Of a DNA stretch of 64,000 nucleotides, positions 11,485 through 21,523 are shown one piece after another (positions within the stretch are counted from its first letter, which is position 1; each line of letters begins with the position of its first letter). Origin of the DNA: Chelativorans salis (lineage in GTDB: Bacteria; Pseudomonadota; Alphaproteobacteria; Rhizobiales; Rhizobiaceae). Location of the stretch: assembly GCF_025336525.1 (NCBI RefSeq), contig NZ_JAOCZP010000010.1:62001-126000 (forward strand). Direction: 5' to 3'. The notes below the pieces were generated by a model, which did no database searches, was not told the DNA's origin, and saw nothing but the letters and a program-made list of their open reading frames with translations. The translations under genes were made by a program, and so were the position numbers.

Positions 11485-11617
11485 GGTCAGGCCACCAGAC
11501 TACCAATGCAAATTTGCAGATAGCGAAAGGGCCGAGCCCGGTGAACGGGCTCGGCAGGGGGAGGATGGCTTTTCCCTGGTCCGTCGGGGACTAGGGAAAA
11601 GCCACGGGGGTTCCGTT
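11485..11617. repeat. Structured element downstream of lectin gene 1 (copy A)
   Basis: This 130-bp stretch recurs at 18058-18189, in both cases downstream of a LecA-like gene. It contains the palindrome TGCAAATTTGCA (11507-11518), a perfect 10-bp hairpin GCCGAGCCCG/CGGGCTCGGC with loop GTGAA (11531-11555), and a 16-bp hairpin starting GGCTTTTCCC with loop GTCGG (11567-11603). In copy B both hairpins keep their shape although bases differ. It may be a terminator or an RNA-stability or regulatory element. No T-run follows either hairpin, so a simple intrinsic terminator is uncertain. Confidence 0.6.
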
Positions 11618-11653: not shown

Positions 11654-12382
11654 CTATTTCTTTGTGAGCGTTATCTCAAAGGAGCCCCTATTGTTGCCAT
11701 ACTCACCCGGATCGTCGTTGTAGAAGAACGCGATTTCGCCTTCCTCTTGCACGTGATAGTCGGACAGTCCTTTGCCCACGGGCCTGTAAGGGTTGGGACC
11801 GCTGCCAATCCTCATCAGACATGCACCGACATTCGTTCCGGGCAGAAGTGCACCTGGGTCCTGATTTTGGGGATCCCCATCAGGATCGAACTCTGGATAG
11901 GACGGCCCATAACTTGCCTTCCCTGTGACCGTGATCGAAATCTTATCCCCACTGCTGACGGTGACACCTGATTTCACGCCCTTTTCCGCCGTCGCCTCGA
12001 GCGTGCATGTGACCGGTTTCGGTGTTTCTCTCGTGACTGTGACGTCGAACGAGCCCGAATTGTTGCCATACTCGCCCGGCACATCGTTGTAGAGGAATGT
12101 GATTTCGCCGACCTCTCCTACTCCCCAATTGGATTTCCCCGTGCCGATGACCTTCGGGGCGCCGTCCTTGCCAACCCGCATCAGGACTGCTCCGACATTC
12201 GTTCCGGGCAGAATTGCTTTGGGGTCTTTATTTTGGGGGTCTCCGTCAGGACCTTCTTCCGGAGCGGCCGGACCGTTTCTTGCTGACCCCGTGACGGTGA
12301 TCGTGATCACGTCGTCTTCTTTGAGGTGCACACTTGTTGCTTTCCCATTTTCCGACTTAGGGTCGAGTTTCCCATGCCACAT
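11654..12382 (-). CDS. Tandem LecA-like (PA-IL) lectin, two domains
   Basis: The start at 12382 (MWHGKLDPKSENGKATSVHL) is preferred over the in-frame ATG at 12412, because PA-I lectins begin M(A)W.G and have no signal peptide. Domain 1 covers about residues 1-118 and domain 2 about 125-242. Each ends with the family motif YNDVPGEYGNN.GSF, which in LecA supplies the calcium and galactose ligands: Asp100, backbone 101 and 104, Asn107, Asn108. Here Asp100, Asn107 and Asn108 stand at the same numbers. Differences: position 36 is Asn in domain 1 but Tyr in domain 2 (GKASYGP), and the His50/Gln53 pair that grips galactose is not kept, so sugar preference may differ. A lux-box dyad lies about 110 bases upstream. 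Cytoplasmic synthesis with release by lysis or an unknown route is likely, as for LecA. Confidence 0.85.
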   Translation of the reverse strand: MWHGKLDPKSENGKATSVHLKEDDVITITVTGSARNGPAAPEEGPDGDPQNKDPKAILPGTNVGAVLMRVGKDGAPKVIGTGKSNWGVGEVGEITFLYNDVPGEYGNNSGSFDVTVTRETPKPVTCTLEATAEKGVKSGVTVSSGDKISITVTGKASYGPSYPEFDPDGDPQNQDPGALLPGTNVGACLMRIGSGPNPYRPVGKGLSDYHVQEEGEIAFFYNDDPGEYGNNRGSFEITLTKK

Positions 12383-12512
12383 TACTCGCTCCTTTCGAAG
12401 ATAACTCGGCAACTTGATACGTCACGCTGGATGTCCGGAGATCCGCACGACCTGATTGACGTTACGCAAAAGGAGAGGGATTGGTATTGTAGATTCCTAC
12501 AGGTCGCGTGGA
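12026..12512. repeat. Long direct repeat, copy A (lectin domain 1 plus promoter)
   Basis: This block matches 18653-19139 at a constant offset of 6627 bases with no net insertion or deletion. The part coding for the LecA domain is nearly identical between copies. The leader and promoter part (12383-12512) has many substitutions, although the TTACGCAAAAGGAGAGG stretch and the lux box are kept. Recent duplication or gene conversion of the coding part explains this best. Confidence 0.8.
12483..12504 (-). promoter_or_regulatory. lux-box operator upstream of lectin gene 1
   Basis: A 22-bp dyad reading, in gene direction, ACCTGTAGgaatCTACAATACC. The inner arms TGTAG/CTACA are a typical LuxR-type binding site. 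Near-identical sites lie at 17201, 19110 and 20775. TTGCGTAAC follows about 20 bases downstream in this copy and in the 19110 copy. Activation by AHL-bound LuxR is inferred. Confidence 0.75.
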
Positions 12513-12530
12513 CTGCAGCGGCGCTGCATG
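12498..12530 (-). pseudogene. Remnant of the luxR 3' end at lux box 1
   Basis: In the minus frame that ends inside the lux box the codons read MQRRCSPRDL-stop. This aligns with the LuxR tail LQHRLIPLDL-stop at the same position relative to the dyad at 19124. It supports the view that the operator was copied together with the end of luxR. It is short, so taken alone it would be weak. Confidence 0.45.
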
Positions 12531-12609
12531 CCCGTAAATTGCCTCATCTTGTTTGGCCGCGGCAACTCGGCGCAGAATGCGGCGAACTACTTGAAGCTCG
12601 AGGCAAGCG

Positions 12610-12885
12610 ATCTGCTGTATATGGCGGTATTGGCGATGGCGCTGCACAGCGCTTTCCCCACCATTACCACTATTTCTCCAACCGCAGCTTCCCCTACGTG
12701 GGCAAAACGACCGAAGGACACAACGATCTTCTTGGCCGCGTAGACGGCGTCGATGGGCTCAAGACGGGCTATATCCGCGCTTCCGGTTACAATCTCGCTA
12801 CCTCCGCCGGCCGCAGCCGACGGGTTGTCGCGATCGTAATGGGTGGGGAGACCGCCAAGACGCGGGACGCGCATATGGAGGGGCC
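12610..12885 (+). pseudogene. Fragment of a D-alanyl-D-alanine carboxypeptidase gene
   Basis: Two plus frames join near 12655: MAVLAMALHSAFP, then FPHHYHYFSNRSFPYVGKT, GHNDLLGRVDGVDGLKTGYI (the KTG motif of DacA-type enzymes) and NLATSAGRSRRVVAIVMGGE. The catalytic SxxK part and the C-terminal domain are absent. It is a frameshifted relic between the lectin promoter and the end of the sugar ABC operon. Confidence 0.7.
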
Positions 12886-12914
12886 AGTCACGATCGAATG
12901 GAAAGCCGATAGAC

Positions 12915-13655
12915 CTACGCACCCTCGATGGCCCCGGTGATCAGCCCCGTCACCTCCTCCGGAGAGCTGTCAGCAATCGGTTTGTCGGCCACTTTCCTGC
13001 CGCGACGCAGCACCGCAACACGGTCGCAGACGGAGAAGACGTCCGGCGTCCTGTGGCTGATGAGGATCACCGTGTGACCTGTGGTCTTCAGATGCCGGAT
13101 CAGGTCAAGCACCTCGGCCACCTGGCGCACGCTGATCGCCGCCGTCGGCTCGTCCATCAGCACGATCTTCGGGTCCACGAGCCGCGTACGGGCGATCGCT
13201 ACCGCCTGGCGCTGGCCGCCGGACATGTGCTTGACAAGGTCTCGTGGTCGCGTCTCAGACTTCAACTCAGCAAAGATCTCTGCCGCGCGTGCGTTCATCG
13301 CTGTTCGGTCGAGAAAGCGGCAGGGGCCAATCTTGCGGATGAGTTCTCGCCCAAGGAACACGTTGAGCGCCGCCGAGAGATTGTCGCAGAGAGCGAGATC
13401 CTGATAGATGATCTCGATGCCCTTCTGCCGCGCCTCCACGGGACGCGCGAACCGCACCTCCTCGCCGTCGAGCACGATGCGTCCCATGCTCGGCGGGAAG
13501 GTTCCGGCGATGATCTTGACCAGCGTCGATTTGCCCGCGCCGTTGTCGCCCATAAGGCCTAGCGCTTCGCCGCGCTCAAGCGAAAGATCGATCCCGTTCA
13601 GCGCCTCGATGGCGCCGAAATGCTTGGAAACCCCGCTAAGCTCCAGTATGGCCAT
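12915..13655 (-). CDS. Sugar ABC transporter ATP-binding protein (RbsA/XylG type, single domain)
   Basis: Start at 13655 (MAILELSGVSKHFGAIEALN). It has the Walker A GDNGAGKST, the signature HMSGGQRQAVAIART and the Walker B VLMDEPTAA. At 246 residues it holds one nucleotide-binding domain, whereas RbsA/MglA have two; such half-size forms pair with RbsC-like permeases. It is the last gene of the leftward operon binding protein-permease-ATPase and powers uptake of a sugar or polyol through the 13667-14686 permease. Confidence 0.92.
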   Translation of the reverse strand: MAILELSGVSKHFGAIEALNGIDLSLERGEALGLMGDNGAGKSTLVKIIAGTFPPSMGRIVLDGEEVRFARPVEARQKGIEIIYQDLALCDNLSAALNVFLGRELIRKIGPCRFLDRTAMNARAAEIFAELKSETRPRDLVKHMSGGQRQAVAIARTRLVDPKIVLMDEPTAAISVRQVAEVLDLIRHLKTTGHTVILISHRTPDVFSVCDRVAVLRRGRKVADKPIADSSPEEVTGLITGAIEGA

Positions 13656-15953: not shown

Positions 15954-16430
15954 TTAAGCCGTTGGCTTTTGAAATGAGCGCCGGCGCTTTGTCTCGACGA
16001 CCACGCCTGTCGATCTGCCGGCCGCAATCTTGGTCTTGAGCGTAAGCGCTTGTTTTGGCTCCGGCTTTGACTGCGATTCAGCGTCCCCTTTTGGTGGTGT
16101 TTGCGCGGCTCGCCGCCTGAGGTTGCGTATGTGCATTAGGGCGTTGGCTGCCGCCGCGTCCGCCTCAGATACTTCGCCAGCCGGTTTCCCATTGAGATCG
16201 ACACGCACCGCGCCAGCACGCAGTTTCGAAAGGTAGTTTCCGATCTTTGTATAAGCACGCATGGCCGTGCTCAACTCATCGTCCGACAGATCCCCGTCAA
16301 GAGCGCGAATATCGTGATGAATGCCGATCTTCAGAGGCCTCGGCGCTTTCGGATTGAATGCCTTCGGCCACTTGGCCGACAGGTAGCGGAAAAGCTCTGA
16401 TGGCGATCTCCCTTGCTTTGTGCCTCGCAT
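15954..16430 (-). CDS. ProQ/FinO-family RNA chaperone
   Basis: The FinO domain covers about residues 8-105: LFRYLSAKWPKAFNPKAPRP-LKIGIHHDI, LSDDELSTAMRAYTKIGNYL and GAVRVDLNGKPAGEVSEADA. The KIGI and YL motifs are conserved in the family, which binds terminator-like RNA hairpins and their antisense partners. A basic, low-complexity tail (residues 110-158) resembles the linker and extra RNA-binding part of other members. On plasmids such proteins can act with antisense RNAs in transfer or copy control; a link with the repABC antisense RNA is only a possibility. Confidence 0.85.
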   Translation of the reverse strand: MRGTKQGRSPSELFRYLSAKWPKAFNPKAPRPLKIGIHHDIRALDGDLSDDELSTAMRAYTKIGNYLSKLRAGAVRVDLNGKPAGEVSEADAAAANALMHIRNLRRRAAQTPPKGDAESQSKPEPKQALTLKTKIAAGRSTGVVVETKRRRSFQKPTA

Positions 16431-16700
16431 GATCAAGCCTCACCCGAATTGTTTTGTTCCAAGATCTAGTAGCGCGCGTTTACGCATGCTTACAGGCTTC
16501 TGGGTAGAGCCCAGGGACTTATCGACCTCGCGGGCGGGGGCAAGCCAAGTGATGGTGCCGACGGTGACGAGCCTCCCATGAACGATCATCACGAGGGTGT
16601 CGGCCTTCCGTTCCTTGCCGAAGGAGCACCCAGGCGCTTAGCGCATGGTCAACTGGCCGACGGATAGCCGACCAGCTGACTTGATCCGCCGATCACGACG

Positions 16701-17018
16701 TCAAATGGCATAGGCGACCCAGCCAATCCTCTCGGCAACATGGATGCCATTCGACATGGCCTGGTTCTCCTTACCGCCCGAGGAACCGACAAGCTCGTTG
16801 ATCCTGATTTTGAAGCCCGCAGGCGTCACGTCGGCAAGGCGAATACCAGGCGTGTCCGGACCATGGAACGTCTGCGTCTCGGTGATGACGATAACCTTCG
16901 AGCCATTCGGGAAGGGCTTGGGGAACTGCACGGGTGTGAAACTGCTGGTATCGTCTCCCTTGAGCGCAGGCGCATTTGCGGACTTGAGTTCAACGACCCC
17001 GGTTTGGACTTGGCTCAT
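16701..17018 (-). CDS. H-type lectin domain protein, 105 aa
   Basis: The ATG at 17018 follows a perfect AAAGGAGGAA ribosome site. After a short tail the chain matches the H-type (Helix pomatia agglutinin-like) lectin pattern: FTPVQFPKPFPNGSKVIVIT, then RLADVTPAGFKIRINE and a closing IGWVAYAI strand. These small beta-sandwiches usually form trimers or hexamers and bind GalNAc-type sugars. There is no signal peptide, as with the two LecA-like proteins nearby. Directly upstream lie the remains of a LecA-like gene and, at 17201, a lux box. So this lectin appears to have been placed behind an existing quorum-sensing promoter. Family assignment is by motif. Confidence 0.7.
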   Translation of the reverse strand: MSQVQTGVVELKSANAPALKGDDTSSFTPVQFPKPFPNGSKVIVITETQTFHGPDTPGIRLADVTPAGFKIRINELVGSSGGKENQAMSNGIHVAERIGWVAYAI

Positions 17019-17026
17019 GACTTCCT

Positions 17027-17150
17027 CCTTTATGACTGTGGCATCAAACGAACCCGAATTATCGCCTTAGTGACGGGGCGCATCGGCGACCAAGAAAATC
17101 AGCTCACCATCGGCTGGGACCTGCCAATGGAGCGAGCCGTTGCCGAGGTG
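17027..17150 (-). pseudogene. 3' remnant of a third LecA-like lectin gene
   Basis: The minus frame reads HLGNGSLHWQVPADGELIFL-VADAPRH-stop-GDNSGSFDATVIKEEV. This matches the end of LecA-type domains (..G.ITLIYNDVPG.YGNNSGSF.V.). A TAA stands where the family Tyr is expected. The 5' half is gone. It lies between the lux box at 17201 and the H-type lectin gene, so the H-type gene now follows a promoter that once served a LecA-like gene. Confidence 0.7.
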
Positions 17151-17200
17151 TTGTCACCGATGCTTCAGCGCAAAGATGCTGAGGCAAAAAAAGGGGGATT

Positions 17201-17222
17201 GGTATTGTAGTTTTCTACAGGT
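17201..17222 (-). promoter_or_regulatory. lux-box operator upstream of the H-type lectin
   Basis: In gene direction ACCTGTAGaaaaCTACAATACC, identical over the dyad to the site at 19110. It stands about 185 bases before the H-type lectin start. Downstream sequence differs from the other lectin promoters (GGCAAAAAAAGGGGG region), so its strength may differ. Confidence 0.72.
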
Positions 17223-17265
17223 CGTGTGGAATGAGGTGGTGCTGAATGGCGCGCACGACGGCCTG
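17215..17265 (-). pseudogene. Duplicated 3' end of luxR at lux box 2
   Basis: The minus frame ends QAVVRAIQHHLIPHDL-stop, with the stop codon inside the lux box. The functional luxR at 19124 ends QAVVRALQHRLIPLDL-stop at the same place. Upstream of these 16 codons the resemblance ends. This is the clearest evidence that operator and luxR tail were copied as one unit. Confidence 0.8.
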
Positions 17266-17285
17266 GCGTGGCCCGCCGGCCGGCC

Positions 17286-17741
17286 TTACGCCTCTCCCTC
17301 GGTGACGGTTGGCGCGCGCCGCTCGATCCGCGCCTGAAAGCCACATAACGCGCCTACGAACAGCATTCCTTTCCGGTTCGAGCCGCAACCGGTCGCATAC
17401 ACGGGATCGAGCACAGGGCGGCAGCACTCGAAGTGCCTCGCCGCCGCCGTCAGGCTCATCAGAGGCGTTCGATAGAGGCGGTCACGGCTTTCGGCCGCCA
17501 GCACCAGCTTGCCCGCCAGTGGTTGCGGATAGCCGTCGAAGATCGTGTACGCGGTCAGGCCGTCCTTCAGCCCGTCATTATTGAGGTACAGCGAATGACG
17601 CTCGTCAAACAGTACAGCATCGATCTTTCGCGATCCGATCAACTCATAAATACCCTTGATCCCTGCATCGGCCGAAACCGTCACCCCACGAAAGATCGTC
17701 GTTTCCGGGTCGAGCACATAAAGGATGGTGGTCTTGGTCAT
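17286..17741 (-). CDS. Hypothetical protein, 151 aa
   Basis: Starts at ATG 17741 behind GAAAAGG. The chain alternates hydrophobic strands and turns (TTILYVLDPETTIFRGVTVS; IDAVLFDERHSLYLNNDGL; LTAYTIFDGYPQPLAGKLVL), without signal or membrane segment. Similar small proteins, sometimes annotated as DUF3846-like, are common on plasmids and phages and have no known role. It ends about 20 bases from the luxR-tail remnant of lux box 2. Not obviously part of the quorum-sensing unit. Confidence 0.6.
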   Translation of the reverse strand: MTKTTILYVLDPETTIFRGVTVSADAGIKGIYELIGSRKIDAVLFDERHSLYLNNDGLKDGLTAYTIFDGYPQPLAGKLVLAAESRDRLYRTPLMSLTAAARHFECCRPVLDPVYATGCGSNRKGMLFVGALCGFQARIERRAPTVTEGEA

Positions 17742-18057: not shown

Positions 18058-18189
18058 GGTCAGGCCGCAAACCAGACTATCATTGCAAATTTGCAAATCG
18101 CCGATAGGACCGACCCCGGGTGAACGGGCTCAGCAGGGGAGGATGGCTTTGCCTGGCCCGTAGGGGCCAAAGCGACGAGGGTTTCCGTT
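18058..18189. repeat. Structured element downstream of lectin gene 2 (copy B)
   Basis: Counterpart of 11485-11617. It shares GGTCAGGCC, TGCAAATTTGCA (18084-18095), a GGGTGAACGGGCTC hairpin region and GGAGGATGGCTTT. The second hairpin is now GCTTTG..GGCCC/GGGCC..AAAGC, so it keeps its pairing with changed bases. It lies 120-250 bases beyond the stop codon of lectin gene 2. Confidence 0.6.
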
Positions 18190-18307: not shown

Positions 18308-19009
18308 CTATGCAGGTGTGTGGTAGAAACCGTCGCCGTCACGCACGGCCGTCCATTTGTCGCCGTTCCAGGTTATATAATTTAGGTTAGCGTCCTCGTG
18401 CTGAACTCGGCTTGGCGGATTGGCTGTCGGCAATGGCACATGGTCGAATTTCTTTGTGGTGGGGTCCCAACTTGCCTGCCAGGCACTGTTGTCCCACGTC
18501 TTATAAATTATGATCTTGTCCTTATGCTCAGTCCCTCCTTGACGCGGTCCCGCTGGAGTATGAAGAAAAATATCACCAACCCAACGTGCCGTCCAAGTAG
18601 TATTGTCCTGCGTGACGTAGTTTATGATCGTGTCATAATGGCCTTGGCCCCGTTCTCTCGTGATTGTGACGTCGAACGAGCCCGAATTGTTGCCATACTC
18701 ACCCGGCACATCGTTGTAGAGGAATGTGATTTCGCCGACCTCGCCTACTCCCCAATTGGATTTCCCCGTGCCGATGACCTTCGGGGCGCCGTCCTTGCCA
18801 ACCCGCATCAGGACTGCTCCGACATTCGTTCCGGGCAGAATTGCTTTGGGGTCTTTATTTTGGGGGTCTCCGTCAGGACCTTCTTCCGGAGCGGCCGGAC
18901 CGTTTCTTGCTGACCCCGTGACGGTGATCGTGATCACGTCGTCTTCTTTGAGGTGCACACTTGTTGCTTTCCCATTTTCCGACTTAGGGTCAAGTTTCCC
19001 ATGCCACAT
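18308..19009 (-). CDS. LecA-like lectin fused to a three-repeat C-terminal domain
   Basis: The start at 19009 (MWHGKLDP) matches lectin 1. Residues 1-118 are almost identical to domain 1 of lectin 1, with YNDVPGEYGNNSGSF intact. Instead of a second LecA domain there follow three similar units of about 38 residues: YDTIINYVTQDNTTWTARW ending FLHTPAG, DKIIIYKTWDNSAWQASW ending FDHVPLP, and DANLNYITWNGDKWTAVRD ending FYHTPA. The pattern is roughly (I/L)xYxTxxxxxWxAxxxxxxFxHxP. I do not recognise this domain; the Trp/Tyr-rich repeat suggests a beta-propeller or beta-trefoil-like binding module. It lies directly downstream of luxR and has a lux box about 110 bases upstream. No signal peptide. Confidence 0.85.
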   Translation of the reverse strand: MWHGKLDPKSENGKATSVHLKEDDVITITVTGSARNGPAAPEEGPDGDPQNKDPKAILPGTNVGAVLMRVGKDGAPKVIGTGKSNWGVGEVGEITFLYNDVPGEYGNNSGSFDVTITRERGQGHYDTIINYVTQDNTTWTARWVGDIFLHTPAGPRQGGTEHKDKIIIYKTWDNSAWQASWDPTTKKFDHVPLPTANPPSRVQHEDANLNYITWNGDKWTAVRDGDGFYHTPA

Positions 19010-19139
19010 TGGTCGCTCCTTTCGAACGTAACTCGGCAAACTGGCGCGTCACTCTGGATGTCCTGAGATCCGCACCACTTATTGGAAGTTACGCAAAAGG
19101 AGAGGAACTGGTATTGTAGTTTTCTACAGGTCGAGTGGA
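18653..19139. repeat. Long direct repeat, copy B
   Basis: Partner of 12026-12512. The homology begins at the end of the LecA domain, exactly where the two proteins differ in their C-terminal halves, and runs through the leader and the lux box into the luxR tail. Confidence 0.8.
19110..19131 (-). promoter_or_regulatory. lux-box operator between luxR and lectin gene 2
   Basis: Same dyad as at 17201. The luxR stop codon (19124-19126) lies inside it, so the end of luxR and the operator of the next gene overlap completely. TTGCGTAAC follows 20 bases downstream. This is likely the ancestral copy, because only here is the full luxR gene attached. Confidence 0.78.
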
Positions 19140-19867
19140 ATGAGGCGGTGCTGAAGGGCCCGCACCACGGCCTGGGTCTTGTTGGCTGCCCCGAGCTTGT
19201 CCATCGCGTTGATGGTGTGCGCGGTCACCGTGCGCTCTTTGATATTGAGAATCTCCGCAGTAGCGGTGGCCGATTTGCCGGCAGCCGCCCAGCGCAGAAC
19301 CTCCCGTTCGCGCGCGGTTAACAGGCAATTCTTGAGTGGTCTGCCGGACGCCGTGATCCGCTTGACATGCTCTGCAGCGTAAATGGCCATTAACTGGATG
19401 GCCGGCTTGGTCTGTGGGGTCAATTCGGCGTACTGCCCGCTCATTGAGACACAGGCACAGCGATGTGCGAACCCGGGAACAGGCACGCAAAAGCCTCGCG
19501 GCATGCCGAAGTCACGGGCCAATGCCATGATCTCGTCCGCTTGCGGTTCGAGCTCGTGGTCATACGGAGCCTCGTTCCAGTCAAACGCCTGCGGCGTATT
19601 TCGACAAAAGCGAGCGACCGGATCCCAATGCAGGTATTTCCGTCCAAGGTACAACGCCGACCACTCGTGCGGCCACTTTTCAAGAAGAATGATGTCCTGT
19701 GCACTCTCCTGCGGCAGGGGCAGGTCCGACATCACGATGGTCGTCAACCCAAATTGGGAGAAAGAATGCTCTATTGCGCGGAGAACATCTGACTTATCCG
19801 GGAGCGCCTCCAAGCCCTCAATAAATGAGAATGCTGTTTGGGCATATTCTGATAGTCCCATATCCAT
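19124..19867 (-). CDS. luxR: LuxR-family quorum-sensing transcription factor
   Basis: Length 247 aa, normal for the family. The autoinducer-binding domain (about 20-165) shows WPHEWSALYLGRKYLHWDPV, with the conserved Trp, Tyr and Asp-Pro of the acyl-homoserine lactone pocket, and the later FDWNE and GFCVPVPG motifs. The C-terminal GerE helix-turn-helix (about 182-240) reads LTAREREVLRWAAAGKSATA and IKERTVTAHTINAMDKLGA. It should bind an AHL and activate the four dyads in this island. Its own start at 19867 has no lux box close by. It is transcribed leftward into lectin gene 2 and divergently from luxI. Confidence 0.93.
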   Translation of the reverse strand: MDMGLSEYAQTAFSFIEGLEALPDKSDVLRAIEHSFSQFGLTTIVMSDLPLPQESAQDIILLEKWPHEWSALYLGRKYLHWDPVARFCRNTPQAFDWNEAPYDHELEPQADEIMALARDFGMPRGFCVPVPGFAHRCACVSMSGQYAELTPQTKPAIQLMAIYAAEHVKRITASGRPLKNCLLTAREREVLRWAAAGKSATATAEILNIKERTVTAHTINAMDKLGAANKTQAVVRALQHRLIPLDL

Positions 19868-19904
19868 TGCACCCGCCCGTGCTGCTGGCTACGTCATTGA
19901 ACCT

Positions 19905-20005
19905 GTCGTTAACGTCAAGCGCGTTGGCGTTGTGGTCGCCGGTCCGCACGTCGGAGTAAGCTGAACCAATCAAGTTTTTGATATGGGTGAGAACCGCCCT
20001 CGGCG
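19905..20005 (-). pseudogene. Possible fragment of an RTX-type repeat protein gene
   Basis: The minus frame contains AVLTHIKNLIGSAYSDVRTG-DHNANALD, close to the I.NL.GSA..D.LTGD..ANVL units that precede calcium-binding RTX repeats. Only about 33 residues are left. Such exported proteins are common quorum-sensing targets in alphaproteobacteria, but a fragment this short is weak evidence. Confidence 0.4.
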
Positions 20006-20219
20006 TGGCGTCGCATGCCGGCCGTGTCGCCGCCAAAGTTTCGGGGTAGAAGATCGAGCCTGTTTTTGCCTTCGCTATCACCGCGCCGTAGTGCGTCATT
20101 GCGAGCTGAGATCTTGTCCTCGCCATTCGTCGGATTTCCGCCCGGCAGTGCCAGCAACTCTGACGAGCCAGCCACAGCGCATTCCTCTTCAATGAAAACA
20201 CAGCGGCTCTCTTTGCCAA

Positions 20220-20491
20220 GCTGTATTTTTTGAGTTTCGATTACAACTGACGGGTCGCAATTTTTATATAACCGCTCTCCTGTATTTTATCATGACATCC
20301 AAAACTTTATTATAAAATTGCAAGAACATATAACTCAAGAAAGATATACATATAATCTCGTCTACTTTCTAAGAACTTCGTGAATATATCTTACAACTTC
20401 GGGATTATAAAGACTCCCTCATGCTCTATTCTAGACTCGCGCATTTCATCATACTTCGGTAAGGATCTATCGCTTAAGAAAGATATACTCA
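20220..20491. other. AT-rich island between luxR and luxI
   Basis: About 270 bases that are clearly richer in A+T than the surrounding DNA, with many TATA-like runs and a direct repeat AAGAAAGATATAC (near 20338 and 20475). No convincing gene is seen; a 65-codon frame from 20380 begins with GTG and has no family resemblance. It may hold the luxR promoter region or be foreign DNA. Confidence 0.5.
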
Positions 20492-20640
20492 CTACCATGA
20501 GGTGTCAACGGTCGCAGTGGTGGTCTGACTTTTTTCCGCCTCGATGGTTTGCGTTGGCGGGCCGGCTGACTGCTTGAGCCGATGGCTTTCGCTGTTCATC
20601 TCAACGATATGTGCGTGATGGGGTGACAGCTTCGTCCTTA
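20492..20640 (-). pseudogene. Possible 3' fragment of an IS21-type istB gene
   Basis: The minus frame reads HHAHIVEMNSESHRLKQSAG, followed by a short polar tail and stop. This looks like the end of some IstB transposition ATPases (VHNAHI.EM.GES.RLKQS). No other part of the element is next to it. Weak evidence. Confidence 0.35.
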
Positions 20641-20774
20641 TAATCAGCACCGCTTGCGAGGCGCCATGTACCATCATTGTGGAGTCACGTGTTGGACAAA
20701 TACTTATGCGAATCCCGTGGCTTAAGGTTCTTGTATTATCTGCGGCGGTGACGGCCTAGGCCTCATTCCACGCT

Positions 20775-20796
20775 ACCTGTAATTTACTACAATACC
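20775..20796 (+). promoter_or_regulatory. lux-box operator upstream of luxI
   Basis: Reads ACCTGTAAttta CTACAATACC on the plus strand, one arm slightly changed (TGTAA instead of TGTAG). It lies about 60 bases before the luxI start. The codons CTCATTCCACGCTACCTGTAA leading into it translate LIPRYL-stop, matching the LuxR tail LIPLDL-stop. It would give positive feedback on signal synthesis. Confidence 0.72.
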
Positions 20797-20854
20797 AATT
20801 CCTCTTGTTATTGCTTAAGCCGAGGCCATGGGATGCGGCAAAAGGAACGATTCC

Positions 20855-21523
20855 ATGGCTGTTGTTTATGTGATCAATGAACGCAACCGGCATCACTACC
20901 GGGACGTCATCGACCGCTATTATTCGCTTCGTCATCAAGTCTTTGTGGGGGAGCGGGGTTGGCGTGCCCTCGCTTCGCGCGAAGGGCGTGAAATCGACGC
21001 CTATGATAACGCCGAAGCCGTGTACCTCCTCGCCTTGGACGGCGAACGTATCATCGGCGGGCTGCGCCTTGGTCCGACCACCCAGCCGCACTTGCTCAGC
21101 GAAGTCTTCTCGCATCTCGCGAGCTTCGAAGGCGTGCTGCAGGGTGCTGATATTTACGAGTGCACACGATTTTTCGTTGCTAGGGACGATAGGAGCGGTC
21201 GTACGAATTGTACTCTTCTCGCCGCCATGCAGGAATTTTGTCTTTCGCAAAACATCAATCATGTGACCGCTGTCGTGGAGACGCGGTGGTTCGCGCGCTT
21301 GCGACGCGCGGGATTTGAGTTCCGCCCTTTAGGCGCTCCCGTGCTTATCGAGGGGCTGCCGTGTGTTGCCATCGCGGCCGATATATCCGAGGCAAGCCTC
21401 GCCACGGCAAGACGGCTTGCCGGTCTGAAGGGGTCCGTATTGGTCCGGCACGAGCACCGCAATCTGCGGGAGCAATCCGTCTGTGCGGGCGCCGCAAGCT
21501 ATCAACTCTCGCACGCATCATGA
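20855..21523 (+). CDS. luxI: Acyl-homoserine-lactone synthase LuxI
   Basis: Makes the quorum-sensing signal from S-adenosylmethionine and an acyl carrier. The start at 20855 (MAVVYVINERNRHHYRDVID) follows AAGGAA; an in-frame ATG at 20828 lacks a ribosome site. Conserved family residues are visible: Arg and Phe in SLRHQVFVGERGW, the Asp pair in REIDAYDN, Arg in GGLRLGPTT, and Glu and Arg in YECTRFFV. Length 222 aa is normal. The acyl chain cannot be predicted. Its operator is the dyad at 20775. Confidence 0.93.
   Translation: MAVVYVINERNRHHYRDVIDRYYSLRHQVFVGERGWRALASREGREIDAYDNAEAVYLLALDGERIIGGLRLGPTTQPHLLSEVFSHLASFEGVLQGADIYECTRFFVARDDRSGRTNCTLLAAMQEFCLSQNINHVTAVVETRWFARLRRAGFEFRPLGAPVLIEGLPCVAIAADISEASLATARRLAGLKGSVLVRHEHRNLREQSVCAGAASYQLSHAS

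Follow-up and report, generated by a model that had tools for sequence, protein, structure and literature searches.

Organization of the locus

The window, i.e. the whole analysed stretch of 64,000 nucleotides of Chelativorans salis, contains a luxR gene that ends inside an operator-like dyad, two lecA-type lectin genes, a unit with a decayed LecA sequence (the 17215 unit) and a luxI gene. The following features are referred to below:

11494-11604, minus strand: block behind lecA2 with two hairpins (11531-11555 and 11566-11604)
11654-12382, minus strand: lecA2, two PA-IL domains (PF07828, 1.3e-36, two stretches)
12482-12504, minus strand: box of lecA2 (box pattern match)
12504-12560, minus strand: orphan luxR tail of the lecA2 unit, aligned over about 57 nt with small indels
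16701-17018, minus strand: gene for 105 aa, its ATG preceded by AAGGAGGA, weakly resembling gp53-C / H-type lectin
17019-17153, minus strand: decayed LecA remnant that contains a stop, lacks its N-terminal part and continues in frame into the next gene
17200-17222, minus strand: box of the decayed lecA / H-lectin-like unit (box pattern match)
17222-17266, minus strand: orphan luxR tail of the 17215 unit, 45 nt, 40 identical
18308-19009, minus strand: lecA1, a PA-IL (LecA) domain and a differing C-terminal half (PF07828, 1.1e-20), directly downstream of luxR
19109-19131, minus strand: operator-like dyad (lux box) before lecA1, into which the final luxR codons and the stop extend
19124-19867, minus strand: luxR, autoinducer-binding and GerE domains (Pfam PF03472, 1e-28; PF00196, 9.5e-18)
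20760-20775, plus strand: short luxR-tail-like stub before the luxI box (14/16)
20775-20797, plus strand: box of luxI (box pattern match)
20855-21523, plus strand: luxI, acyl-homoserine-lactone synthase (PF00765, 2.3e-25)

On the minus strand, luxR is followed by lecA1 in the same direction. The luxR product combines the autoinducer-binding domain with the GerE/LuxR helix-turn-helix that together characterize LuxR-type acyl-HSL receptors. Its gene ends in ...CAGCACCGCCTCATTCCACTCGACCTGTAGAAAACTACAATACC (peptide end ...LIPLDL), and the TAG stop codon occupies 19124-19126 within the dyad ACCTGTAGAAAACTACAATACCA, which bears out the first-pass annotation that the luxR stop lies inside the operator. 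The dyad has the properties of a lux box, as it spans about 20 bp, stands upstream of luxI and other targets and is conserved between relatives. The nearby luxI gene, for which ATG 20855 is the likely and 20828 a possible start, presumably encodes the cognate synthase. Among the genomes seen, a luxR with its stop in the box occurs together with luxI and lecA in one only. No relic of luxR was found between luxR and luxI (19868-20775; best luxR match E 1.7). A stretch of this gap (19887-20081) shows weak translated similarity to the H-lectin-like gene (28% over 65 aa, E 0.011 without composition correction); the ORF located there has no Pfam match.

Occurrence of the box

The pattern CCTGTARNNNNYTACAATACC, which describes the dyad, has six zero-mismatch matches in the 5.66-Mb genome: four in the window, at 12483 (lecA2), 17201 (decayed lecA), 19110 (luxR stop) and 20776 (luxI), and two outside it, before a gene for a hemopexin/PA-IIL protein on contig C2 and before a third lecA gene, lecA3, on contig C13. 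A reversed control pattern gave no match in this genome at up to one mismatch. At three mismatches, 15 matches were obtained versus 12 for the reversed control; therefore, only close matches were used. In a collection of 84,980 species, the exact pattern matched eight contigs, six of them adjoining luxI or lecA; the other two, in Bacteroidetes bins, were taken for chance. The viral contig collection returned no exact match, and the plasmid collection yielded one luxR match (65% identical, M. extorquens) and no close copy. Within the family, the box at up to one mismatch is present in five of 394 genomes, all of the window's genus or of a second genus (g75). A luxR match at 1e-52 is likewise present in five of the 394, a set that differs from the box-bearing five: genome G007 has luxR without the box and C. 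xinjiangense (G003) the box without luxR. As far as the evidence goes, C. xinjiangense belongs to the same genus as the window.

Each of the 12 lecA genes found in eight searched genomes stands behind a box: three in this genome, one, truncated, in C. xinjiangense, three in G243, four in G340 and one in G378 of a related genus, while three of the eight genomes had no lecA match. One of the G243 boxes is imperfect, with one or two mismatches. About 13-15 nt past most lecA boxes and the luxI box, a TTGCTTAA-like stretch is conserved that may represent a -10 region. Whether the spacer sequence tells luxI-derived from lecA-derived boxes was considered and dropped, as spacers do not segregate with the gene: that of M. 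extorquens luxI is lecA-like.

Orphan luxR tails

The similarity between the luxR end and the sequences preceding the other boxes was assessed with an anchored test, in which the upstream stretch is compared with the luxR end position by position and scored, starting at the box. The null consisted of 218,414 other positions, drawn from this genome's sequence only and with the true sites removed, and the P values apply per site, uncorrected for the number of sites. In a strict version, the 13 nt adjoining the box were omitted because they are possibly part of the operator. The tail of the 17215 unit (at 17221) scored 35, with 40 of 45 nt identical, and none of the null positions was as good in either version. 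A gapped match extending this tail to 93-95 nt was set aside, and nothing beyond 45 nt was used because the match there enters the terminal part of the adjacent gene at 17286-17741. Before lecA2 (at 12503, the 12498 tail), the score was 14, with 22 of 30 nt identical in the ungapped comparison; one null position was as good, and the strict test gave p=0.0017. A gapped alignment keeps this tail in register for 57-59 nt, through the ANKTQA region of luxR. The luxI tail at 20776 reached a score of 12 with 14 of 16 nt (two null positions as good; strict p=0.075). Elsewhere, no null position equalled the tails before lecA3 in the same genome (23/24 nt; strict p=7e-5), in C. xinjiangense (22/24 nt; strict p=3e-4) or before the G378 lecA (32/43 nt, the strict test included).

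In total, 12 orphan lecA-type boxes were tested: 17221, 12503, those of lecA3, C. xinjiangense and G378, three in G243 and four in G340. Six of these have strict p<0.002 (17221, 12503, lecA3, C. xinjiangense, G378 and, marginally, G340:8257), and a distal tail was absent from the remaining six (best strict p 0.012). An unanchored local alignment supported neither the luxI stub (p of about 0.04) nor the seven lecA boxes of G243 and G340; the masked anchored test is preferred because the unanchored null sample still contained pieces overlapping true sites.

The tail peptides quoted in the first-pass annotation, RQAVVRAIQHHLIPHDL-stop at 17215, ...QRRCSPRDL-stop at 12498 and LIPRYL-stop before luxI, are correct. 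Its claim of matching tails at 12498 and 20762 holds for the former; for luxI, it extends to the 16 box-proximal nt but not to the strict test. The reservation that only the 17215 copy might be significant does not apply to 12498, which also passes the strict test, and further orphan tails, beyond those it listed, are present on contig C13, in C. xinjiangense and in G378.

The copied unit

With 74.4, 125.7 and 145.1 bits, lecA1, lecA2 and lecA3 all pass the PA-IL domain cut-off of 22.5 bits, and lecA2 matches LecA chains in the PDB at 2.4e-19. lecA1 and lecA2 share 538 nt at 92% identity; the match sets in about 58 nt ahead of the box and stops where the first LecA domain ends. A second match, a block of 154 nt at 79%, lies behind the gene. 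Positions 11494-11560 of the block behind lecA2 are repeated behind lecA1 at 18071-18139; the hairpin at 11531-11555 folds better than shuffled sequences (z -3.8) and its lecA1 counterpart does not (z 0.65). As far as the start codon (CTTCGAAAGGA region), the lecA leaders of this genome can be aligned with those of genus g75. Between lecA1 (18311-19009) and lecA2 (11657-12382), identity reaches 98% in the first LecA domain and the C-terminal halves differ, with the switch at the domain border, which can be read as domain shuffling or gene conversion. Beside the lecA2 tail lies a piece of a D-alanyl-D-alanine carboxypeptidase gene (12515-12940; Peptidase_S11 E 3e-5, below cut-off). In genus g75, LecA-type genes form arrays in which each gene has its own box (L069:8257-12084, L068:6316-9475); the luxR gene that diverges from them has no close luxI and, as far as the searches go, encodes a LuxR solo.

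At 12498, on C13, in C. xinjiangense and in G378, the copied unit comprises tail, box, leader and LecA coding sequence, and the 12498 copy also includes the block behind the gene. Since the unit reaches into LecA coding sequence, it points mainly to gene duplication with the promoter attached. luxI and the lecA units have only 59 bp in common, from the tail stub to just beyond the box, and the attachment of the other copies to lecA thus indicates that the luxR tail mostly hitchhiked with copies of, chiefly, a LecA-type lectin gene and its promoter. The similarity of the tails is sequence homology, while the direction of copying is what we infer from it. The C. xinjiangense unit consists of AQHCLIPLNL-stop, the box and the first ~32-45 residues of a LecA, in neighbourhoods that, judged by eye, differ; this genome has no luxR match at 1e-20.

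The proposal that tail and box were copied together is hence sustained for more than one case, even in a genome lacking such a luxR match, but equating the mobile unit with the luxR end plus box is too narrow, as most tail copies run on into lecA sequence. In its strong form, that proposal would make tail and box a discrete, self-spreading promoter module that recruits unrelated genes. The 59-bp block would suit such a module, as it is all that luxI and lecA1 share, and so would the 17215 box, which stands before a gene other than lecA. However, the other tail-bearing copies are joined to lecA sequence, a LecA remnant intervenes at 17215, luxI may be the original owner of the box and convincing terminal inverted repeats were found in none of the five units searched, which makes a self-spreading module unlikely. 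Three inverted-repeat pairs were detected in these units, two of which, a hairpin behind lecA2 and a weak pair inside the gene adjoining the 17215 unit, do not surround their unit; the third is a weak flanking pair in C. xinjiangense (17 nt, 82%, 488 nt apart) that may be due to chance. Direct repeats were considered for the largest 20 of 32 families. Among the copies, neither convincing terminal repeats nor examples free of an attached gene, the marks of a self-mobile promoter, were seen, and the luxI copy alone is free of lecA. No transposase gene lies near a tail-bearing unit in the stretches looked at.

The 17215 unit and targets without a tail

The 17215 unit, too, is an old lecA unit, in which the LecA portion has degenerated; a further stop codon precedes the LecA remnant. 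The product of the gene at 16701-17018 reaches 15.0 bits for H_lectin (cut-off 24) and 17.3 bits for gp53-like_C (cut-off 24.9). Both scores are under the Pfam cut-offs, and the gene is therefore termed only H-lectin-like; its product has no meaningful match in the PDB. The position of the 17215 box before this gene is plausibly one case of recruitment. Over 42 nt, the 17215 tail has 30-33 nt identical to the luxR ends of g75 and G007, compared with 28-30 for the present luxR; over the last 24 nt, the values are 14-18 and 16-18. The longer comparison could fit an older copy at 17215, while the shorter one lends this no support. A gene for a ProQ/FinO-family RNA chaperone (3.9e-24) lies nearby at 15954-16436.

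Boxes also precede LecB-type genes. The C2 protein scores 24.3 bits for PA-IIL (cut-off 21). In G340, one relative (L085) reaches 17.7 bits, below the cut-off, and the other (L086), a 94-aa ORF without a match, was called LecB-type from its likeness to L085 by eye. The C2 hemopexin and PA-IIL gene (L016:3607-4671) has a tail-less box and two G340 relatives behind boxes, one of them a short ORF. A transposase gene with DUF772 and DDE_Tnp domains lies near it (L016:1900-3369). In the anchored test, none of the three LecB-type boxes has a tail (for the C2 box, 2 nt, p=0.12), and an origin of these boxes from a luxR tail was rejected. Tails are therefore dispensable and not every target joined by tail copying; to judge from their upstream sequences, LecB-type targets were added otherwise than by tail-bearing copies. 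Of the idea that new targets arose by duplication of a cassette, the plausible recruitment at 17215 remains, but the LecA remnant found there and the tail-less LecB-type targets count against its general form.

The common upstream sequence could instead be a selected, extended operator or an UP-like element, its likeness to the luxR end being coincidental. Such an element would account for the 13 box-proximal nt (ATTCCACNCGA-like), which recur before luxI and at G340:9245 and 10196, all without a distal tail. It does not account for the five copies that stay similar 24-57 nt out, through luxR codons, nor for the lack of tail similarity at all three LecB-type boxes and at four Microvirga boxes, and we regard it as quite improbable. 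A role of the dyad as luxR transcription terminator rather than operator is very improbable: a 5-bp stem with an AAAA loop is possible at the luxR end, but folding of the 76-nt stretch does not surpass that of shuffled sequences (z 0.28), on which result this reading was rejected, a T run is absent and the dyad likewise precedes luxI and the 12 lecA genes that were found. Hardly any credence is given to 17215 as the sole real copy with the other tails due to chance, for which the strict values of luxI and 12503 and the unanchored value of luxI might speak, in view of the additional copies on C13 and in C. xinjiangense and of the 12503 tail, which with gaps remains in register to 57 nt.

Origin of the box

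In four of four Microvirga contigs, a tandem arrangement of luxR, TGA, 6-7 nt, box and luxI is found. M. extorquens AM1 also has a tandem luxR-luxI pair, with a gap of ~90 nt and a box with two mismatches. This pair is perhaps MlaR/MlaI, a name used in PMC10790750. In genus g143, eight matching genomes (397 of the order searched) have another dyad 6-10 nt past the luxR stop, before luxI; this TACTGGGAAATTTCCCAATA-like dyad (L113-L120) is a different box in the same place. Among these outgroups, the luxR stop and the dyad are spaced differently and, in g143, the box sequence differs as well. Given such tandem luxR-luxI pairs with a dyad after the luxR stop in close relatives, the box was probably at first a luxI operator located behind luxR. 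In that case the stub before luxI is probably an ancestral feature, and luxI, which had been listed among the targets gained by cassette duplication, fits better as the original owner of the box than as a new target.

In the LuxR tree (20 rows), the window pairs with g75 (99/97), and G007 joins the two (97/93); M. extorquens and two Microvirga sequences, one of them partial, fall outside. The LuxI tree gave no settled position for the window row, and the best luxI in five searched g75 genomes is 30% identical. A DL-stop end is present in all five luxR genes of the clade of window, g75 and G007 and in none of 25 other luxR ends. No recognizable box remains at the g75 and G007 luxR ends, and G378 retains only CCTATAAacaCTACAA. 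The case for a stop-in-box ancestor in that clade is thus made by the DL end.

Proposed history of the regulon

From these observations, the following sequence of events is proposed. LuxR of this locus, together with an acyl-homoserine lactone, would bind the dyads and activate luxI and the lectin genes. The dyad would have started as the luxI operator, with luxR and luxI in tandem. In the common ancestor of window, g75 and G007, a deletion of ~7 nt would have removed the old luxR stop; the stop plausibly moved into the box by this small deletion, after which TAG or TAA of the operator would end luxR translation and LuxR would gain its ...DL end. A LecA-type lectin gene may then have come to lie behind the luxR-box junction, and lectin copies made with their promoter would have carried the luxR end as well. 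The orphan tails would subsequently have drifted, with indels relative to luxR, while luxI came to stand elsewhere and retained a short stub. In one copy, the LecA part would have decayed, leaving the promoter before the H-lectin-like gene. We hold this account as a whole, comprising luxI-operator origin, a stop-shifting deletion and lecA duplication with hitchhiking of the luxR end, to be likely. It is a tentative and rather doubtful extension that the regulator's last codons and its own operator form a travelling promoter module that builds a quorum-sensing lectin regulon, with the operator stop dictating the C-terminus.

Relation to known systems and significance

Among the titles and abstract openings listed by a literature search that covered few subscription journals, there was neither a lux box over a luxR stop nor lectin quorum sensing in Chelativorans. 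Bacterial promoter propagation or promoter capture has reportedly been treated by Matus-Garcia in 2012 and Oren in 2014. Propagation and capture of promoters by duplication are discussed in PMC11111574. Here, too, a duplicated promoter is placed before further genes, but the origin of the copies can be read from the fragment of the regulator's coding end that they bear. For proteobacterial LuxR/LuxI pairs, a tandem R-I topology with a lux box before luxI is described in PMC3658600. The present pair has the same domains, the tandem order in its relatives and a dyad before luxI; it differs in that luxR and luxI are divergent and one box overlaps the luxR stop. In Pseudomonas aeruginosa, LecA (PA-IL) and LecB (PA-IIL) are placed under quorum sensing in PMC5750575. 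Relatives of PA-IL and PA-IIL likewise stand behind one type of box in this genome, whereas the host is alphaproteobacterial, several of the lectins are fused or two-domain proteins and both regulator and box are different.

The growth of regulons is usually guessed from motif scans, which are blind to whether an operator was copied or arose by point mutation. Fossils of a regulator's coding sequence help to tell copied from newly arisen boxes within a single genome: of the lecA-type boxes, at least five (three here, two in relatives) are copies, and the LecB-type boxes bear no sign of copying. As the operator supplies the luxR stop, changes in one would constrain the other. The locus thereby links an alphaproteobacterial LuxR, by its predicted boxes, to relatives of both quorum-sensing lectins of P. 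aeruginosa.
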